This document shows positions 8,001-50,816 of a stretch of 64,000 nt of DNA, one piece after another; within the stretch, counting starts at the first letter, position 1, and every line of letters begins with the position of its first letter. Made by a program: the position numbers and the translations under genes. Under the pieces are notes generated by a model that was not told the origin of the DNA, did not search any database, and saw nothing but the letters and a program-made list of their open reading frames with translations. The DNA comes from Acidobacteriota bacterium (GTDB taxonomy: Bacteria > Acidobacteriota > Blastocatellia > Pyrinomonadales > Pyrinomonadaceae), in assembly GCA_019639135.1 (NCBI GenBank), contig JAHBSL010000005.1, forward strand, positions 1 to 64,000, read 5' to 3'.

Positions 8001-9109
8001 TCAGCATCGGCGAAGGCGCATTTCAGGATGTGGTCACGGCCGGCGGGGCTTTCCTTCAGAACGGCTACAATGGCGTATTGGGTGCGAACGGAGTGAATAA
8101 CCCGCTTGCCGGACGCAATGCGTGGACCGGGAATTCAGGCGGCTACGTGCATTCGGTGGTTAGGCTTCCGGCGGCATCGGCGGGACAGAACGTCCGCCTG
8201 CGATGGCGATTCGGTGCCGACAACAATACCGCGGTTCTCGGTTGGTTTATCGATAATATAGAGATCTCGGGCAGCGTTTCCTGCATAATTGCCGATGGCC
8301 GGGCTCCAGCGGATTTCGACGGCGATGGGCGAACGGACATTTCTGTCTTTCGGCCGAGCAACGGCGTTTGGTACTTGCAGCAGTCAAGTGCCGGTTTCGC
8401 GGCTTATTCGTTTGGCCTAAGCGACGATATGATCGTTCCCGGAGACTTCGACGGCGATGGAAGGGCGGACGTTGCGGTCTGGCGACCCGGAAACGGAACC
8501 TGGTATTTGCAGCGTTCGACCGAGGGCTTTACAGCATTTCAGTTCGGCATTGATGGCGACATTCCTGCCGCGGCGGACTACGACGGGGACGGAAAAGCGG
8601 ATGTGGCGGTTTTTCGGCCTTCGACCGGGGTCTGGTATGTACTGAAGAGCACGGGCGGGACGATGATCGTGCAGTTCGGACAGACCGGTGACGTCCCGAT
8701 CCGCGGTGATTTTGACGGCGACGGAATAACAGACCTTTCGGTTTTCAGAAGCGGCGAGTGGTGGATCCTGCGGAGTTCGGGCGGCGTTGTGGTAGAGAAC
8801 TTCGGGACTACGGGCGACATTGTTGTTGCCGGCGATTTCGATGGCGACGGCAAGACCGATCCGGCGGTGTTCCGTCCTTCGGATGGCATTTGGTATATTC
8901 TCCGGAGTTCGGACCGCGGCGTAACTTATAAGCAATTCGGCCTTGCGGGAGACATTCCCTCACCCGGCGATTACGATGGCGACGGAAAGACGGACGCTGC
9001 GGTTTACCGCGATGGCATCTGGTTTGTCGAAAGATCTACAGGAGGCGTTTTGATCACATCGTTTGGTGTTTCCGGTGATCGGCCGGTCCCTGCATTTGCG
9101 GCACTTTGA
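5048..9109 (+). CDS. Secreted M36 (fungalysin-type) zinc metallopeptidase with choice-of-anchor-J-like and FG-GAP-type domains
   Basis: The ATG at 5048 is chosen because a GAAGGAG ribosome binding site lies just upstream and a signal peptide follows (hydrophobic stretch LFVIALLAAILSAPAAL). The open frame extends 5' to 4841 but that part looks non-coding. The 1353-residue product has an FTP-like propeptide (about 100-330), an M36 catalytic domain with HEFTH (551-555) and a downstream glutamate in GEGWSDF (E578), a CARDB-like segment, a jelly-roll segment resembling choice-of-anchor-J domains (about 890-1080), and six DFDGDG-type calcium loops at the C-terminus. It is probably an exported protease whose repeats form a propeller. 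A close paralog follows directly. Confidence 0.9.
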   Translation: MNDRPSLNLHRRLISNLFVIALLAAILSAPAALFDAEATGGAGLRERTESHESGLPNYDIRTDPGAISTRAAFRESAGLTAPDVADIRDGFVRGEKSLRSSIENARVEYSPESGTPEVVSTDGGFAFTPLAGSGSANRAVALKRFIASNSELFGIGGADVASLETAADYTNPDGVLSFVELAQSFNGIPVFRGEVKAAFTKRNEIVRVISNLAPAIDKTSLSLEFGDPNAAIQYAANHIEDKAAIGDNAVVPVSDNVFRSGNGDWATTAEKIYFPVEPGVAVPAWRVLFWFPVNAYYVIVDAKRGELLWRKNIAEDQTQPATFRVWNNPNGAINVADSPFPFTPGPAAPNGQQGPSLPTQLVTLIGNEPPYQFNTNGWIPDGQNETDGNNVEAGLDRDTTQGVDAINGRAVGNKRVFDFPFSPYDPNTGTGDSPTPPGEPVSNCSQIPQPHAFIDAQKAAVTQYFYISNWTHAAFYSFGFTEAARNFQHLNFGRGGLEGDRLSAESQDCSGTNGANFATPADGTRPRMQMFIWTGPPVDIDTAIDAQIVIHEFTHGLSNRLHGNSTGLTTNMARAMGEGWSDFYANALLSASNDPATGVYAVAGYSTNLIFSNFTNNYYYGIRRYPKAILSYTGGVNNKPHNALTFSFANTNCNPRLSETEFAFPRGLVGTTTCDQIHNMGEIWAVTLWEVRSRFIERLGFQEGNRRVLQFVTDGMKISPLAPTFLQARDAILAAAQASSASPESAADVADIWAGFAARGMGVSSSIQNQGTGNNNTVVTEAFDTPGLAQTPAITIDDSVGNGSGFPDPGESVLIELPLTNNSGVTANNVSVTLTGGGSADYGNIGHTQTVTRSIAYTVPAGSSCGAVVQLEFQVTSSLGPQTFARAITLGQPIVSATENFDGVTAPAFPSGWTAQPVSNGINFVTSTTTPFSSPNAAFAVNPSTIGGGTDLTSPVFAISSPSATVSFRNNYATEAGWDGGVLEISIGEGAFQDVVTAGGAFLQNGYNGVLGANGVNNPLAGRNAWTGNSGGYVHSVVRLPAASAGQNVRLRWRFGADNNTAVLGWFIDNIEISGSVSCIIADGRAPADFDGDGRTDISVFRPSNGVWYLQQSSAGFAAYSFGLSDDMIVPGDFDGDGRADVAVWRPGNGTWYLQRSTEGFTAFQFGIDGDIPAAADYDGDGKADVAVFRPSTGVWYVLKSTGGTMIVQFGQTGDVPIRGDFDGDGITDLSVFRSGEWWILRSSGGVVVENFGTTGDIVVAGDFDGDGKTDPAVFRPSDGIWYILRSSDRGVTYKQFGLAGDIPSPGDYDGDGKTDAAVYRDGIWFVERSTGGVLITSFGVSGDRPVPAFAAL

Positions 9110-9447
9110 TGCGTTCCTCAGAGAACCTTTTTCTATTGATAACTCTGTCGGTCCCGACAACCCCGGAGACCAAAGTCCTTTTTGTAGTTTCGTGTTGACG
9201 AGTGAACTCTTTTCTGTTACTTTTTAGGAACTTTTTCGCTCTTTCATTTAAGTCCGAGGAAATTTTTCTGACCATTTATTTCCTCCACGTACCTTTGCCC
9301 GTCGCCTCACTCTCGACCGAAGAGTTTTCCGGCGGATCGACGTTATTTTCATATTTGCTCTGTCCTTTTACGTAAGGTAATCCAGAATATCCCTGCCGTT
9401 TCCGCGGTTGGGACACTTCATTTCTTGTAGCTTTAGGAGGGCTTTAG
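9110..9447. other. Intergenic region with possible promoter between the two M36 genes
   Basis: No credible reading frame is present. Just after the upstream stop there is a very weak hairpin (GTTC/GAAC, 9113-9126) followed by five T. A possible sigma-70 promoter is TTGACG at 9195-9200 and TACTTT at 9218-9223 with 17-base spacing; the -10 matches the consensus at only three positions. A strong AGGAGG site precedes the downstream gene. This suggests the second peptidase is transcribed separately. Confidence 0.3.
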
Positions 9448-12400
9448 ATGCAGAACAGCAGTAAGGAGACAGGGGCTCGGTGGGGTCTTCTGTTGAGTTT
9501 TGTGGTGCTGGCGTTGGTGGCGGCCATTGCGGTCGTGCCGACTCAGTTCGAGTGGCAGGTCAGCGGTCAGGGCAAAGGCTTGACCGTGAGGACTGAAAGT
9601 CACGTTGAGGGGTTGGAAAACTACGACATCCGTGAGAATCAAAAATCTCCGGAGGTCGAGGAGGCCCTTTTGAAGTATCGCGACACGGCGGGCAAGACTG
9701 CGTCGTTCGTTGCAGACGTTCGGGATGGGTTTGTCCGCGGCGAGGAATCGCTTAAGACGCGGGTTCCCTCGCTTGAGGTCGAATACAATACGGACATTCG
9801 TATCCCCGAAGTTATCGGGCCGGACGTCAAGCAGGGCGTGAACTTCCTCACGGGACCGGCGACGGGCAACCGTGTGGACATGCTCCGCAACTTCGCCAAG
9901 CAGAACAGCGAGTTGATCGGTGTCAATGACGAACAGGTCAACCAACTTAAGGTGCTGGCCGACTACACGAACCCGGACGGTGTCCTTTCGTTCGTGCATC
10001 TCGAGCAGGAGATAGACGGCGTGCCGGTATTCCGCGGAGAGATCAAGGCGGGCTTTACGAAGAACAACGAGATCATCCGCGTGATCAACAACCTGGCACC
10101 GGGAGTTGAATACAACTCGGTCTCGAAGAACTTCGGCGACCCACTCCAGGCAGTTACTCACGCCGCACGGCACATCAACGTAGATGTCTCGACACTTGAC
10201 CTGACGGTCAACGAATCGGCATCGAGAGACAACAAGACGGTCTTCGGCCGCGGCGATTGGGCGACGACCGCGGAACGGATGTACTTCCCGACCGAGCCGG
10301 GTGTGGTCGTTCCCGCACATCGCGTACTCATTTGGCAGCCGGTCAATGCCTTCTACGTTATCGTCGATGCCAACACGGGCACCATGCTCTGGCGGAAGAA
10401 CATTACGGAAGATCAGACGCAATCGGCCACCTATCAGGTCTATCGCAACTCGAATGCGATGATCGACGTTGCCGACAGCCCGGCACCGCTCACCCCGGGA
10501 CCGAATGACCCGGCACTTGGCACGCAGGGATCACTCCTGACACGAGCCAACGTTACGCGGATCGGTAACGAAGGCCCCTACACCTTCGTCAACAACGGCT
10601 GGATCACCGATGGCCAAAACATTACGGACGGTAACTTCAACGAAGCAGGTATCGACCGAGACGGAACGAACGGCGTTGACGCTCCTCAACCGGGCGACAC
10701 CGCTTGCCCGGGAGCAGGCTGCCGTGTCTTTACTTCGACCTGGAACCCGCCGCCGGGCAACCCGGCACCGGGCGATGCCCCGCTGACGGCTCAGGCACAA
10801 CGCGGTGCCGTTATCCAGATGTTCTACGCTATGAACTGGTACCAGTCGGAAATGTATCGGCTCGGCTTCACCGAGCAGGCTTTCAACTTCCAGCAGGACA
10901 ACTTCGGACGCGGCGGGGCCGCGGGTGACCGAGTCTCATCGGAAGGCCAGGATAGCTCGGGGACGAACAACGCAAACTTCGCGACACCGGCAGACGGCGG
11001 CCGCGGAAGGATGCAAATGTTCATCTTCACCGGTCCTGATCCGGACCGCGACGGCACGACGGACGTCGATGTCATCATCCACGAAGTGACGCACGGCCTT
11101 TCGAACCGGCTCCACGGCAATGCCTCGGGCCTTTCGACCAACATGGCCCGCGGAATGGGTGAGGGATGGTCCGACTTCTATGCCCACGCAATGCTCTCGG
11201 AGCCGAGTGACCCGGCAAACGGAGTTTATACGACGGGCGGCTACGTTACGTTGGCTATCACTTCCGGCTTCACCGGAAACTATTACTACGGCATCCGCCG
11301 TTACCCAAAGGCACCGCTCCAGTTCACGGGCGGCGTCAACAACAAGCCGCACAACGCGTATCGCTTCAGCGATATCAACGCGGGCTGCGCAACGCGGCTT
11401 AACAATACGAACTTCGCATTTGCTCCAGGGCCGATCGGGTCTGCGACCTGCGACCAGGTTCACAATGCGGGCGAGGTTTGGAGTTCGATCCTCTGGGAAG
11501 TTCGCCACAGGATGATTACCCGGCTCGGCTGGGCAGACGGCAACCGGAAGACGCTTCAATACATTACCGACGGTATGAAGCTCGCTCCGCTCGGCCCGAC
11601 CTTCGTTACCGAACGGAACGCGATTCTCGCAGCGGTTCAGGCCAGCGGAACGCCCGCAGACCTTGCCGACTTCTGGGCTGGCTTTGCAGCCCGCGGCCTC
11701 GGCTTTAGCGCTCAGGTGATCAGTGCCTCGCCGGCCAATGTCGTTGATGGTTTCGATCTTCCGCAGCTTGGTTCGGGCGGCAATGCACAGGTAACCTCAG
11801 GCAACAACCTGATCGAACCGAACGAGTGCAATACGCTCAACATTCCGCTGAACAACAATTCGGCAGAAGCAGCTACCGGTATTACGGCCGTGCTTTCTAC
11901 GACCACTCCGGGCGTTACCATCTCACAACCGAATTCGGCCTATCCGGACATCCCGGCAGGCGGAACGGGCGTGATGAACATTACTCCGTACCAGGTTTCG
12001 ACCGCAAATACGCTGGCGTGCTTCACTAACATTAACCTTACGCTGACGGTGACGTATTCGGGCGGCGGCGGCGGTTCGCCCGGACAGTTCCAGTACACGC
12101 TCCCGGTCGGCCAACAGGGCAATACTTATGTTGCCACTGCGGGAACCGGTACGGCTCCTGGTAACCCGGCCAACAGAACATTGGTACCGGGCACCCAGGT
12201 TGACGATTCGCCTTCGACCACGCTTCCGCTTCCGAGCGGCTGGACCTCGACCATCTATGATGTTCCGGTCACGTCGCTTAGTATCGGAGCAAACGGAATG
12301 CTGCAGGTCAATGGTTCGTCTCCGACGACGTTCACCAACACGGCTCTGCCGCATACGGTCACCCCGACCGGACCGCGTATCTTCCCGTTCTGGGACGACC

Positions 12401-13605
12401 ACATCATGACAGCCGCACGCGGTGCAAACCTCGGTGTCTATACAGAGACGATCGGGACCGCTCCTAACCGTCAGTTGATCATCGAGTGGCGTTCACAGCA
12501 CTTCAACGGTGGAATCAATGAGAATATGATGACCATCAACCATACGACGGTCCTCAACGAGGGATCATCGTCGTACTCCACCTACTACACCCTGACGGGA
12601 GCCGGAGCCCAGGCAAACGGTGTGTCTGCGACCGTCGGTATTCAGGCCACGAACTCGGGAACACAGTTCACTCAGTTCTCATTCAATCAGGCAGTCATAA
12701 TGCCCGGAATGAAGATCGACTGGACTCTTCCGGCCGGAACCTGTAATCAGGGTCCCGGACCATGCGGTGCAGTTCCGAGCGGAAGTGCCCGAGCAGACTT
12801 CGACGGCGACGGCAAGACCGACCTTTCGGTCTTCCGCGGCAGCGAAGGTAACTGGTACCTGAACCGTTCGACGGCCGGGTTCCAGGTGCTCAACTGGGGC
12901 ATCTCGACGGACACGATCGTTCCGGCGGACTTCGACGGTGACGGCAAGGCCGACACGGCCGTGTTCCGCGGAACAGCAGCCGAGGGGGCGACCGATTTCT
13001 ACATCCTGAACAGCAACGGGTTCACATTCTCGGGCTATGCCTGGGGAACCGTTGGCGATCAGCCTGTCGTGGCCGACTATGACGGCGACGGTCGTGCGGA
13101 TGTGGGCATCTATCGTCCTTCGGATGGTACCTGGTACATCATCCTCAGCTCGAACGGAGCCAATGTGATAGTCAATAATCCGGGCACGACACCTGTCCCG
13201 GCCGACTACAGCGGCGACGGACTAGCTGATGGGGTGATATTCACTAACGGCAATTGGGTCGGCACCAGCTCCACAGGTAACCCGATCAATGTCCAGTGGG
13301 GAGCTGCTGGCGACATTGCCACGCCGGGCGACTTCGATGGCGACGGCAGGGTCGATCAGGCCGTGTTCCGTCCTTCGACCGGTGTCTGGTACATTCTGCG
13401 GAGCAGCAATGGCCAGGCTGAGATCGTCCCCTTCGGAGCCAATGGCGACATCCCGGTCGTCGGTGACTACGATGGCGACGGCAAGGACGACATTGCCATC
13501 TATCGCAACGGCCAGTGGTGGATCAACCAGTCAACAGGCGGTGTGACGATCGCGAACTTCGGTATCGCGACCGACAAACCGGCTCCGGCTGCCGCTAATC
13601 CGTAA
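9448..13605 (+). CDS. Secreted M36 (fungalysin-type) metallopeptidase, paralog of the preceding gene, with FG-GAP-type repeats
   Basis: This 1385-residue protein is collinear with its upstream neighbour through the propeptide (shared RTESHVEGL.NYDIR start, VADVRDGFVRGEESL) and catalytic domain (HEVTH at 545-549, GEGWSDFYAHAM, NYYYGIRRYPKAP). The two diverge after the catalytic domain, where this one has a different beta-rich segment with a Gly run. Six calcium-loop repeats (DFDGDGKTD type; one altered to DYSGDGLAD) follow at the C-terminus. AGGAGG precedes the ATG, and an N-terminal hydrophobic segment acts as signal sequence. The tandem arrangement implies gene duplication followed by swapping or divergence of the middle domain. 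A good terminator follows the gene. Confidence 0.9.
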   Translation: MQNSSKETGARWGLLLSFVVLALVAAIAVVPTQFEWQVSGQGKGLTVRTESHVEGLENYDIRENQKSPEVEEALLKYRDTAGKTASFVADVRDGFVRGEESLKTRVPSLEVEYNTDIRIPEVIGPDVKQGVNFLTGPATGNRVDMLRNFAKQNSELIGVNDEQVNQLKVLADYTNPDGVLSFVHLEQEIDGVPVFRGEIKAGFTKNNEIIRVINNLAPGVEYNSVSKNFGDPLQAVTHAARHINVDVSTLDLTVNESASRDNKTVFGRGDWATTAERMYFPTEPGVVVPAHRVLIWQPVNAFYVIVDANTGTMLWRKNITEDQTQSATYQVYRNSNAMIDVADSPAPLTPGPNDPALGTQGSLLTRANVTRIGNEGPYTFVNNGWITDGQNITDGNFNEAGIDRDGTNGVDAPQPGDTACPGAGCRVFTSTWNPPPGNPAPGDAPLTAQAQRGAVIQMFYAMNWYQSEMYRLGFTEQAFNFQQDNFGRGGAAGDRVSSEGQDSSGTNNANFATPADGGRGRMQMFIFTGPDPDRDGTTDVDVIIHEVTHGLSNRLHGNASGLSTNMARGMGEGWSDFYAHAMLSEPSDPANGVYTTGGYVTLAITSGFTGNYYYGIRRYPKAPLQFTGGVNNKPHNAYRFSDINAGCATRLNNTNFAFAPGPIGSATCDQVHNAGEVWSSILWEVRHRMITRLGWADGNRKTLQYITDGMKLAPLGPTFVTERNAILAAVQASGTPADLADFWAGFAARGLGFSAQVISASPANVVDGFDLPQLGSGGNAQVTSGNNLIEPNECNTLNIPLNNNSAEAATGITAVLSTTTPGVTISQPNSAYPDIPAGGTGVMNITPYQVSTANTLACFTNINLTLTVTYSGGGGGSPGQFQYTLPVGQQGNTYVATAGTGTAPGNPANRTLVPGTQVDDSPSTTLPLPSGWTSTIYDVPVTSLSIGANGMLQVNGSSPTTFTNTALPHTVTPTGPRIFPFWDDHIMTAARGANLGVYTETIGTAPNRQLIIEWRSQHFNGGINENMMTINHTTVLNEGSSSYSTYYTLTGAGAQANGVSATVGIQATNSGTQFTQFSFNQAVIMPGMKIDWTLPAGTCNQGPGPCGAVPSGSARADFDGDGKTDLSVFRGSEGNWYLNRSTAGFQVLNWGISTDTIVPADFDGDGKADTAVFRGTAAEGATDFYILNSNGFTFSGYAWGTVGDQPVVADYDGDGRADVGIYRPSDGTWYIILSSNGANVIVNNPGTTPVPADYSGDGLADGVIFTNGNWVGTSSTGNPINVQWGAAGDIATPGDFDGDGRVDQAVFRPSTGVWYILRSSNGQAEIVPFGANGDIPVVGDYDGDGKDDIAIYRNGQWWINQSTGGVTIANFGIATDKPAPAAANP

Positions 13606-47529: not shown

Positions 47530-47903
47530 TTAGTCGGGGCAGAGGCAGCCAGTGGCGGAGTGGCGGCGGAGAATGAGGTTTGCTATGCGGTGAAACGTCC
47601 CGCCCCAAACGCGATGGACGTTTTGTGAGCCCGTCAGTGCCTCGACACGGCGGAGCATCTCACGCGACGCCCGGTTCGTAAAGGTCGCAAGAAATATCCG
47701 CTGCGGGGAAACGCCCTGCTCAAGCAAATACGCCACGCGATAAGTTATCGCCCGCGTCTTGCCCGTCCGGCCCCGCAACCACCAGCGTCCGCCCTTGGCT
47801 GAGCGGTCACCACCGCGAACTGCTCCTCATTCACCTCGCTCTTATATCGGGTCAACCGCTCCGGCAGGTCGCTCGCGTCCCGCTTAATAACATAGCGTGC
47901 CAT
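47530..47903 (-). pseudogene. Frameshifted 5' fragment of a UvrD/PcrA-type helicase gene
   Basis: Starting from an ATG at 47903 the minus strand reads MARYVIKRDASDLPERLTRY, then after one frameshift GRTLVVAG, and after a second, at the position of the Walker A motif, [20 protein letters not shown] and [20 protein letters not shown]. The frame ends shortly after [13 protein letters not shown], where an intact protein would continue for 600 residues. This is the N-terminal piece of a superfamily 1 helicase that has decayed. No remainder of the gene lies in the window. Confidence 0.75.
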
Positions 47904-47946: not shown

Positions 47947-49632
47947 CTAATTTGTTTCGTCTTCGGTGGAGGGTGGGCTAGACGGTGTCTCAGGTTCCGC
48001 TCCTCGATCGAAGTTCTGTATTGAAATCAGCAGTTCGGCGACCAGCTTGACCTCTTTCTTCTCGATTCGGCCTACAAAGTCCGATGCACCATTGTTGTCT
48101 GATTTCACGTAATTCACGAGCATCGGGAGAAGATTCCAGTTTACGATCATCAATCCCGCTACGTGTTTCTTGAAATTCTCCGTTTCCGGCTTATCTTCGA
48201 CGTTTAATGTGGGAATCATGTTTATTGAACGGGCAGCCAGCGCGTTCACCTCGTAAACGCCCGTCGGGTCGATCTTTTGTGAAATCGGGATCAGCTTGAT
48301 GTAAAACGAGGCCCGCCGCGGAAGTGACTCGATCTTTGCGATTGTTTTTTGGGCATTGATCGAAACCTCTCGTGCTCTATCGAGCCTTTGGTTCTCGACG
48401 TAGTAATTTGCGATGCTTAATTCGCCCTCCGCTTTTCGCTCATCTTCCATTTGGCGTTCGACGGCGTAAATTGCCGAAACATCATCGCCAACCTTCAGCG
48501 CTGTTTCTGCGATCCTTTCAAGTAGTTGGCCAACGATCGCTTTCTGGACATTAGCGAGGATGGATACGGTGCTTAAATCCACTTTGCCGAGATCCAAGGC
48601 AAGATCGGCGGCTTTCCTAAAGAGACCTTGGTCAAGCGCGAGTCCCACCGCACGTTGATAAAGTTCGTATTTGACGATCGGGTCATCAACGTTTTCAGCC
48701 TCTTCGATCAAGGCTCCGAGCGGGTCAATGCTGTTTCGTATCCTTTCGTTGCGTTCACGCTCGGCCCGCGATTTTTGTGAGATTCGTGAAGCAAGAACCG
48801 CCCGCAAGACCTCGACCTCTGGAACTCGGTCACTCAACCGTCGGGTGATCAGCGAAGAGTTCCTATTCAACAGATCGAGCCACGCATCGAAATCGGCAAA
48901 GGGAAGCTGGGAAGCGATTTGGGTTCGTCTAAGTACTATTCTGCCGAAGCGAGCGGCCGAACCTGATTGAATATTAACGTCATCGTAGTAAGGCGAAACC
49001 AAGACCAACGTGTTGAGTTCAAGCCTTCCCGGATTCCTTTCTTCGACGGCAATCAAAGTGTCAAGGAGCCTGAAAAGCTCGGGTGAATTTCTTTGTTTCA
49101 ATCGAAGAAGTATAACCGGCAAATTCGTGTCCGTTGCTGAAATAGAGTAAAGTGCCCTGATCGTCGCATCAACCGCGGCTTTTTCACCGCCCGGCTGGTT
49201 GAGTAAATGATACTGAATTGAATCCTCCTGATACTCGTCGACTTTGTGTTTGGCTTTCAGACGTTGAGAGGTTTCAGGTGAATAGCGGTCGAGCAAAGCA
49301 AAAAGTTGGGACGAAAGTGTTGAGAAATAGGGGGACGGAACTTCAACCCGGTTCTTATAAAGATCTTCGATCGCGGCGACTGCAAAATCCTCGGCTCGTT
49401 CAATGTCGTCCTCTTTGTCGCTCCATAGCCACTCGGCAGCCCGATATCGAGCCAACACCCGCGGCGCAGCCAATGCTACCTCACGAACGCGGTTCTCCAG
49501 ATCATTTACAAGCATGATCTTCTGAACTCGTCGTTGAGCCTCTCGTTCGTCCGAGCTTAGGGCCGATTGAGCGATACAATTCGCAACAAAAAAAATAAAC
49601 AACGCGACAAAAACTACTGTACGTGCAAGCAT
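47947..49632 (-). CDS. Large secreted helical protein of unknown function
   Basis: The 561-residue product has a signal peptide (cleaved about residue 21, NCIAQ) and a largely alpha-helical body rich in charged residues, without recognised motifs. Repeated helix pairs such as YELYQRAVGLALDQGLFRKA and RASFYIKLIPISQ suggest a TPR- or HEAT-like solenoid. The C-terminus is Pro/Ser/Glu-rich. It follows the thioredoxin-like gene by 56 bases and that follows the Cys-rich peptide gene, so the three may form one unit. The function cannot be told. Confidence 0.65.
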   Translation of the reverse strand: MLARTVVFVALFIFFVANCIAQSALSSDEREAQRRVQKIMLVNDLENRVREVALAAPRVLARYRAAEWLWSDKEDDIERAEDFAVAAIEDLYKNRVEVPSPYFSTLSSQLFALLDRYSPETSQRLKAKHKVDEYQEDSIQYHLLNQPGGEKAAVDATIRALYSISATDTNLPVILLRLKQRNSPELFRLLDTLIAVEERNPGRLELNTLVLVSPYYDDVNIQSGSAARFGRIVLRRTQIASQLPFADFDAWLDLLNRNSSLITRRLSDRVPEVEVLRAVLASRISQKSRAERERNERIRNSIDPLGALIEEAENVDDPIVKYELYQRAVGLALDQGLFRKAADLALDLGKVDLSTVSILANVQKAIVGQLLERIAETALKVGDDVSAIYAVERQMEDERKAEGELSIANYYVENQRLDRAREVSINAQKTIAKIESLPRRASFYIKLIPISQKIDPTGVYEVNALAARSINMIPTLNVEDKPETENFKKHVAGLMIVNWNLLPMLVNYVKSDNNGASDFVGRIEKKEVKLVAELLISIQNFDRGAEPETPSSPPSTEDETN

Positions 49633-49688
49633 TGTAATTACCTCCGTTGACTGCTTTCACGAATCAGGTTCATAAATGTTCCCGAGAA

Positions 49689-50228
49689 TCACTTGCCAAA
49701 CTCAAAATCCTTCGTCCATAGCCCAGGATAAACTTTGGTTGCTACGCCATCAGCATCGGTTTCAATGGTCATTGGCGTAAACCCAATGCGCGCTTTGGCC
49801 ACTTCCTCAGTCGGAACAACCCGAACATCAACATCCATTAGTCCGTTTTCGCTGAGATGTTCACGTATCAGTTCGACGTCGGTTTGAGATGTAATTGCGT
49901 AAACCTTCCAATGATTGCGGTCGATAGAGCTTAACAGTTTTTTCCAACCCGCATACTGTTGAACACAATACTCGCAGTTCGTGTTGAAAACGAAAAGAAT
50001 CGTTCGCTTTCCGTCCTGCCCAAAAACCATCGGAGATTGCTCGCCGTTCAGATTCGTGGCTGGAATTTGCGAAAACCGATATCCAACGTCCGTTACGAGT
50101 CGTTTCGCACTTTCTAGACTGCTTCTAAGTTGCAGGTTCTGGTAAATTAGTAACGCATTCGAAATAAGAAGAATGAGCGTCACCAATACTAGGTACAAGC
50201 CACTTCGGTCTTTAAGGGAGTATTTCAT
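49689..50228 (-). CDS. Membrane-anchored thioredoxin-like protein (TlpA/redoxin type)
   Basis: The 179-residue protein has one N-terminal transmembrane helix (LYLVLVTLILLISNALLIYQ) and an extracytoplasmic thioredoxin fold with the active-site CEYC (C85, C88 in FVFNTNCEYCVQQYAGWKKL). A cis-proline-like position is seen in IGFTPMTIE. It should handle disulfides in the periplasm. The neighbouring gene encodes a secreted peptide with ten cysteines, an obvious candidate substrate. Confidence 0.8.
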   Translation of the reverse strand: MKYSLKDRSGLYLVLVTLILLISNALLIYQNLQLRSSLESAKRLVTDVGYRFSQIPATNLNGEQSPMVFGQDGKRTILFVFNTNCEYCVQQYAGWKKLLSSIDRNHWKVYAITSQTDVELIREHLSENGLMDVDVRVVPTEEVAKARIGFTPMTIETDADGVATKVYPGLWTKDFEFGK

Positions 50229-50359
50229 TGTCTTTCGTTATGGGGTTGGTTTTTTGAATTCGATTTTAAGGGCTTATTTAGGCAGACGGTTCCTCGAAAG
50301 TTGAGTCTTTTCACACAACACCCGAAGAACCGTCCACATGAAGCACATTCAAAATCGAC

Positions 50360-50614
50360 CTACGAGCATGTTCCGCCGCAACATGCGGGTTCCATCGCAG
50401 GCTGATCCGCACAGTTGCACTGTACGAAATTTGCCCCCTGAACACATGCTCCCTGGCCCGGGCAACTACATGAAATCTCACCGCCTCCGGGACACACAAC
50501 TGTTGCACTGCAGGCTGCAAAAACCGGGACAGCAAAAACTACGATTAACGCAAATGACGCGCAAACGAGACCCGCCATTGCTAGAAGAACCCTTAACTTA
50601 GCTCCAATGGTCAT
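50360..50614 (-). CDS. Small secreted cysteine-rich peptide
   Basis: The 84-residue product has a signal segment (LRVLLAMAGLVCASFALIVV ... FA) and a mature part of about 51 residues with ten cysteines (pattern C-x5-C-x7-C-x-C-x4-C-x6-C-x-C-x8-CC-x3-C), an even number that fits five disulfides. AGGAG lies seven bases before the ATG and a sigma-70-like promoter lies upstream, so it is a real gene. I recognise no family. It is followed by a CxxC thioredoxin-like gene and a large secreted protein on the same strand. It could be a secreted structural, bacteriocin-like or metal-binding peptide. Confidence 0.65.
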   Translation of the reverse strand: MTIGAKLRVLLAMAGLVCASFALIVVFAVPVFAACSATVVCPGGGEISCSCPGQGACVQGANFVQCNCADQPAMEPACCGGTCS

Positions 50615-50684
50615 ACTACACTCCTATGGTTTTTAACGGGCTAATGGGAAATCAAATCGCGCTGATTTGAACTAGAGGGTTAGA

Positions 50685-50714
50685 ATAACAGCGCCATTCG
50701 ACTTTTCCCGTCAA
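50685..50714 (-). promoter_or_regulatory. Candidate promoter of the Cys-rich peptide gene
   Basis: On the minus strand TTGACG (50709-50714) and TGTTAT (50685-50690) are spaced 18 bases; the start of transcription would be about 65 bases before the ATG at 50614. The -10 matches at four positions. Confidence 0.4.
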
Positions 50715-50816
50715 CTTTTTTTTGTACGTTTGCAGCGTGCCGAGGTGTTTGCAAATGCGGACCTCGGCGGTTACGATTGCGGATAACGAATTTCTTTATA
50801 AAAGGACGTAAAAGCG

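Follow-up and report, generated by a model that had tools for sequence, protein, structure and literature searches.

A probable gene-linked module for an exported disulfide-rich peptide with its own thioredoxin-fold catalyst in Acidobacteriota

We identified three adjacent genes in a 64,000-nucleotide stretch of acidobacterial DNA (the whole of which we call the window) that probably form a gene-linked module making an extracytoplasmic disulfide-rich peptide with its own thiol-disulfide catalyst of the ResA/TlpA fold. The genes encode a small Cys-rich peptide precursor (PEP), a thioredoxin-like protein (TRX) and an exported helical protein (SOL). Chance does not account for their arrangement, which is kept in other genomes, and the linkage between peptide and TRX genes is strongly enriched over controls. 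For the phylum as a whole, we see about an even chance that Acidobacteriota hold an undescribed class of highly diverse Sec-exported disulfide peptides, each with its own ResA/TlpA-like catalyst and an interchangeable delivery or binding partner, namely an alpha-solenoid, an ADOP permease or a 6-bladed propeller.

The three-gene locus and its conservation in the order

All three open reading frames of the trio proposed in the initial annotation were recovered on one strand (Table 1). The gap between PEP and TRX is 131 bp and that between TRX and SOL 56 bp, with good ribosome-binding sites upstream of PEP (aggag) and SOL (ggagg). A forward pair of ybaB-like and recR-like genes diverges from PEP. 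The promoter that had been placed before the first gene is without support from our scan, which dealt with sigma-70-type promoters (other types lie outside its scope) and gave three matches in the region against 2.8 expected, none of them upstream of PEP. Using Pfam and NCBIfam, we recognised no immunity gene or dedicated transporter in the window operon, in agreement with the earlier reading that no transporter stands next to the trio. Just downstream of SOL, the minus strand carries the N-terminal piece of a helicase of the UvrD type (47530-47903; Pfam E 5e-21, about 70 of 271 positions covered), apparently split over two frames and probably the remnant of a rearrangement.

Table 1. Coordinates of the trio and its features in the window
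Feature	Position	Strand	Basis
PEP, 84-aa secreted Cys-rich peptide precursor	50360..50614	-	ORF; homologous peptides in six other genomes
PEP predicted mature part, 51 residues, 10 Cys	50363..50515	-	cut after VFA inferred from sequence; Cys framework conserved
TRX, 179-aa membrane-anchored thioredoxin-fold protein (ResA/TlpA-like)	49689..50228	-	ORF, profile matches
CEYC active-site motif of TRX, residues 85-88	49965..49976	-	conservation, 40 relatives
Pro152 of TRX (in TP), at the cis-Pro position of the thioredoxin fold	49773..49775	-	>=90% conserved, 40 relatives
SOL, 561 aa, exported, predicted all-helical solenoid; no Cys in the mature protein	47947..49632	-	ORF, AlphaFold2
Divergent intergenic region, PEP versus forward ybaB-like/recR-like genes	50615..50816	.	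presumed operon promoter site

A homolog search with synteny, which had been put forward as a check, found the PEP family in 7 of the 119 genomes of the order by profile search, and the PEP and SOL searches of the order converged on the same few loci. All TRX matches better than E 1e-66 came from six of the seven, where they stood beside PEP and SOL; in the seventh, the set is split by contig breaks. Gene order varies, from PEP-TRX-SOL (G084, G069) and PEP-PEP-TRX-SOL with two peptides (G080) to SOL-PEP-TRX (G030) and PEP-SOL-TRX (G097). G095 carries three peptides followed by a SOL gene cut by the contig end, with the end of a SOL gene, and a TRX gene, on another contig. The genes flanking the trio differ in every genome that carries it, and its G+C content is 48.4% compared to a window mean of 55.2%, a value matched or undercut for the trio by 4 of 122 sliding windows. 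Together, the low G+C and the changing neighbours suggest horizontal movement or repeated loss.

The peptide, the thioredoxin-like protein and the predicted solenoid

The hydrophobic signal segment of PEP ends in VFA, with the signal at about residues 1-33 and the mature part at about residues 34-84. If the precursor is cut after VFA, PEP matches the previously described mature peptide of 51 residues with ten Cys, CC and CxC included. Among 13 relatives, four Cys are invariant and one is nearly so. Within the PEP group, conservation is 25-49% for the mature peptide, 23-46% for TRX, 23-38% for SOL and 16-48% for the signal peptide, which is less conserved than the mature part in most pairs. Conservation of the mature part at roughly the level of its two partners, and mostly weaker conservation of the signal, argue for a translated and selected peptide.

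PEP has no Pfam, NCBIfam or PDB profile relative, including any defensin-like family. Its model contains four short strands (mean pLDDT 74), and a fold search of this model in the PDB returned no structural relative (best E 2.8). No accepted Pfam or NCBIfam family recurred among the 13 homologous peptides or among 39 peptides of other TRX loci; the two sets gave isolated weak matches only, two of them, for example, to a plant defensin-like model and below its threshold. A lipoprotein reading of PEP was set aside, the lipobox being shifting and poor owing to its varying distance and a Phe at -3. Outside the Cys core, the peptides of L036 and L055 and those of L049 share a conserved acidic C-terminal tail (GGEFEIELPPEY, GDEFEIEEGPAN; KDEFD/ADEFD).

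TRX has one N-terminal hydrophobic anchor and retains both CEYC and Pro152, which bears out its earlier description as a membrane-anchored thioredoxin-like protein. Among proteins of solved structure, ResA, StoA and TlpA come nearest to it, with a profile search of the PDB matching ResA at E 1e-12. NCBIfam models for ResA, StoA and MauD match relatives of TRX; the window protein itself is below all Pfam cut-offs and has no NCBIfam match at E 0.001. Across 40 TRX relatives the first Cys of CxxC is invariant and the second nearly invariant, and nearly all members keep CxxC and the Pro. Since the known activity of ResA and TlpA is mainly that of reductases, the direction of TRX action can only be inferred. 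The earlier proposal of a dedicated oxidase or isomerase stands as far as the pairing of TRX with the peptide goes, either activity being putative with kin of the ResA/StoA/TlpA type. The window genome has 25 redoxin matches and encodes a VKOR oxidant and two reductants of the DsbD/CcdA type, so that oxidising and reducing periplasmic routes probably both exist.

Several TRX proteins depart from the common form. In four of them Ser or Thr takes the place of the second active-site Cys (CPYT, CVFS, CPFS, CSYS): those of the ADOP permease loci L075, L115 and L123 and that of the SOL locus L057, so that three of the four sit in ADOP-type loci. Second TRX copies that have no active-site Cys, or that align in part, occur beside intact ones in L113 (7438-7791), L143 (3574-4119) and L147 (1471-2058). 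The window genome also encodes a second TRX of the same type, with a CRYC motif (L140, G000:C34, 2459-5013, plus strand), which, instead of a small peptide, adjoins an ankyrin protein and a Cys-rich open frame of 388 aa with repeated DxDNDCDG-like stretches.

The signal segment of SOL holds the protein's single Cys. SOL had been described as a 561-residue secreted protein of unknown fold; length and signal segment hold, and a fold can now be predicted, as the AlphaFold2 model is a long all-helical solenoid (mean pLDDT 85.6). Structure comparison retrieved solenoids like those of TPR proteins, SNAP, 14-3-3 and VPS35 with Z up to 10.5, which is below kinship level for helical repeats. The similar shapes include retromer VPS35, SNAPs, 14-3-3 proteins and a Rap regulator, none of which stands out. 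Consensus TPR proteins gave patchy profile matches, and no Pfam or NCBIfam family matched SOL above cut-off.

Distant SOL relatives in L119, L126 and L139 also adjoin TRX, as does SOL-B, a second exported family whose sequence looks helical, in five loci. In one genome (G110) a SOL stands with no PEP or TRX detected on its short contig. SOL relatives thus exist without PEP and TRX, and SOL is therefore not exclusive to the module. The SOL and SOL-B families also pair by themselves: in L051 (G074, 8819-12734) directly after a SOL relative come a gene of the SOL-B type and another frame with a similar beginning, with no TRX or peptide near.

Peptide linkage and third partners across the phylum

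A TRX profile matched 72 of 396 Acidobacteriota genomes. TRX loci repeatedly had a gene for a small exported Cys-rich peptide alongside, often in tandem; the peptide sequences are unlike PEP and mostly unlike each other. We surveyed the 40 TRX loci that had been left out of profile building and used 30 redoxin (PF08534) loci as controls. Peptides were called by open reading frame and hydrophobicity rules instead of a gene finder, the detector taking frames within 1.5 kb with a hydrophobic N-terminus, a mature part of 22-100 aa and at least four Cys. A same-strand peptide was present at 26 of the 40 TRX loci, whereas the 30 controls had no peptide on either strand (Fisher p=4e-9); opposite-strand peptides occurred at 3 of 40 TRX loci. 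Counted singly, 37 peptides near TRX were on the same strand and 4 on the opposite strand (p=1e-7). The detector found no same-strand peptide at 14 of the 40 loci. Random genes from the same contigs numbered just 4, too few to serve as a control, and we compared densities instead: 0.28 peptides per kb near TRX, 0.03 per kb elsewhere on the same contigs and none in 100 kb of control sequence. Further TRX loci of the order gave the same peptide pattern.

The initial annotation would have been refuted by a peptide not conserved near thioredoxin genes. We found conservation there at two scales, locally as homologous peptides and phylum-wide as unrelated ones. The number of Cys after the hydrophobic segment was even in 43 of 52 peptides (p=2e-6 against one half, an optimistic value because tandem paralogs are not independent). 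Even counts are the expected mark of paired disulfides.

The third position of TRX loci is variable. An ADOP permease (MacB_PCD plus FtsX; TIGR03434) accompanies 9 of the 40 other TRX loci and none of the 30 controls, and TIGR03434 was matched by 10 of the 26 partner genes that we scanned at other TRX loci, the domains matched being those of the permease only (MacB_PCD, FtsX). A 6-bladed propeller is found in three TRX loci and in no control locus. Altogether, a solenoid, ADOP permease or propeller stands beside 19 of 40 TRX genes compared to 0 of 30 controls; the partner profiles were built from the same loci in which they were then counted, so the partner counts describe rather than test. 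A MacB/FtsX permease is absent from the window locus, where SOL holds the third position.

Proposed mechanism, alternatives and known systems

In the mechanism that we favour, PEP would be exported via Sec and its signal removed, as its sequence suggests, and its ten Cys would pair as disulfides in the periplasm, in keeping with the even Cys counts across the peptides. The earlier proposal of Sec export followed by periplasmic disulfide folding gains support here, in so far as peptide genes are conserved near thioredoxin genes. TRX would sit in the inner membrane by its anchor and expose the thioredoxin domain to the periplasm. Gene linkage and the intact CxxC and Pro point to TRX as a dedicated catalyst for the linked peptide, either an oxidase or, more likely, an isomerase or shuffler. 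A single nucleophilic Cys would suit shuffling or holding of a substrate better than net oxidation, and we therefore lean towards isomerase-like action. SOL, exported, Cys-free in its mature part and predicted to be a TPR-like alpha-solenoid, would probably bind the peptide, whether as a hand-off chaperone, a retention or immunity factor, or a receptor. Elsewhere SOL gives way to a MacB-like ADOP permease or a 6-bladed propeller, which would be in keeping with a function downstream of folding, for example in delivery to or across the outer membrane. The mature peptide itself may serve an interbacterial, signalling or structural role; our data speak neither for nor against the toxin idea of the initial annotation. 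Several observations speak against this mechanism: Ser or Thr in place of the second Cys fits oxidase action poorly, the closest kin of TRX are mostly known as reductases, some TRX loci (14 of 40) have no same-strand peptide, and SOL relatives also occur with no PEP or TRX nearby.

The kinship with ResA, StoA and TlpA, the DsbD/CcdA-type electron donors in the genome and the loss of the second active-site Cys in a few members would also suit a TRX that acts as a reductase, keeping the Cys of a metal-binding or redox-active periplasmic peptide reduced. We consider this unlikely, since the even Cys bias fits paired disulfides and not metal clusters, Cys spacing varies widely among the peptides, unlike a metal motif, and no metal-related gene is linked. 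Chance neighbourhood, with TRX serving cytochrome c maturation or general redox duty and a peptide of unrelated function, draws on the ResA-like fold and on how common thioredoxin-fold genes are, as the redoxin matches of the window genome illustrate. It is hardly credible given the linkage statistics against redoxin controls and the opposite strand, and given that PEP co-occurs with the closest TRX in the order.

Two further readings concern the fate of the peptide. The first Cys after VFA could be lipidated or crosslinked into an envelope layer, making PEP a surface or lipid-anchored structural peptide with SOL as its scaffold. Many members do have their first Cys near the predicted signal cut, and the partners are exported repeat proteins; however, members differ in how far the first Cys lies from the A-x-A-like end, and Cys counts are even although lipidation would consume one Cys, which together make this quite unlikely. 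Small Cys-rich precursors, often in tandem and adjoining a redox protein, might instead be precursors of a modified natural product with thioether or other Cys crosslinks, TRX only readying the Cys for an enzyme encoded elsewhere. This we regard as very unlikely, as PEP bears a Sec-type signal and not a leader for a cytoplasmic enzyme, and no modification enzyme was recognised by the trio or recurred among the sampled neighbours.

Under the favoured reading of a dedicated disulfide catalyst, the closest parallels are PedC/pediocin, BdbA-BdbB/sublancin and BlpGst/thermophilin, in which a thioredoxin-fold CxxC protein is likewise linked to a small Cys peptide. Co-expression of PedC, which is thought to set the disulfides of pediocin, raises pediocin potency (PMC4919988). 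These systems belong to Firmicutes, their peptides having one or a few disulfides and often leader/ABC export with an immunity gene, whereas in the window system, which is Gram-negative, a peptide of up to five disulfides has a Sec-type signal and is accompanied by a protein with a ResA/TlpA-type anchor and by an alpha-solenoid. In E. coli, STII is exported via Sec, receives its disulfides in the periplasm through DsbA and passes the outer membrane by MacAB-TolC (PMC5985334). The MacB-like ADOP permease that partners TRX in several Acidobacteriota loci resembles this route; STII, however, uses the general Dsb system, and the window system has a gene-linked catalyst and no permease. By analogy, the window system would work like PedC/pediocin or Dsb/STII while being a member of neither family.

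TRX shares with ResA, StoA, TlpA and MauD an N-terminal anchor, a thioredoxin domain predicted to be extracytoplasmic and CxxC, but is linked to a Cys-rich peptide and not to genes for cytochrome c or methylamine dehydrogenase. The defensin-like bacteriocins actifensin and laterosporulin are also small, Cys-rich secreted peptides with divergent sequences and conserved Cys (PMC6989792); unlike PEP, they have an ABC-type leader and transporter-rich operons. In the literature covered, which includes few subscription papers, we found no description of the arrangement of peptide and TRX. Pairing a Cys peptide with a redox enzyme is a known principle; the phylum-wide scale, the diversity of the peptides and the swappable third partner appear to be new. 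If this reading is true, the TRX gene offers a way to find bacterial disulfide peptides, a large set so far unseen whose members are candidate antimicrobials, signals or adhesins, in a phylum that is among the most abundant in soil. Orphan ADOP permeases, for which we know of no assigned substrate, would gain a testable candidate substrate class.

Outside Acidobacteriota, searches were confined to plasmid records, in which we found no TRX homologs; a related TRX from another genome retrieved ResA/TlpA genes only. Two Bacteroidota neighbourhoods that we examined contained no annotated peptide. The A+T-rich acidobacterial loci L122 and L141 combine peptides and TRX with 6-bladed propeller proteins (PF17170), a propeller type also known from Bacteroidota, where NVEALA peptides beside 6-bladed propellers may offer a likeness.
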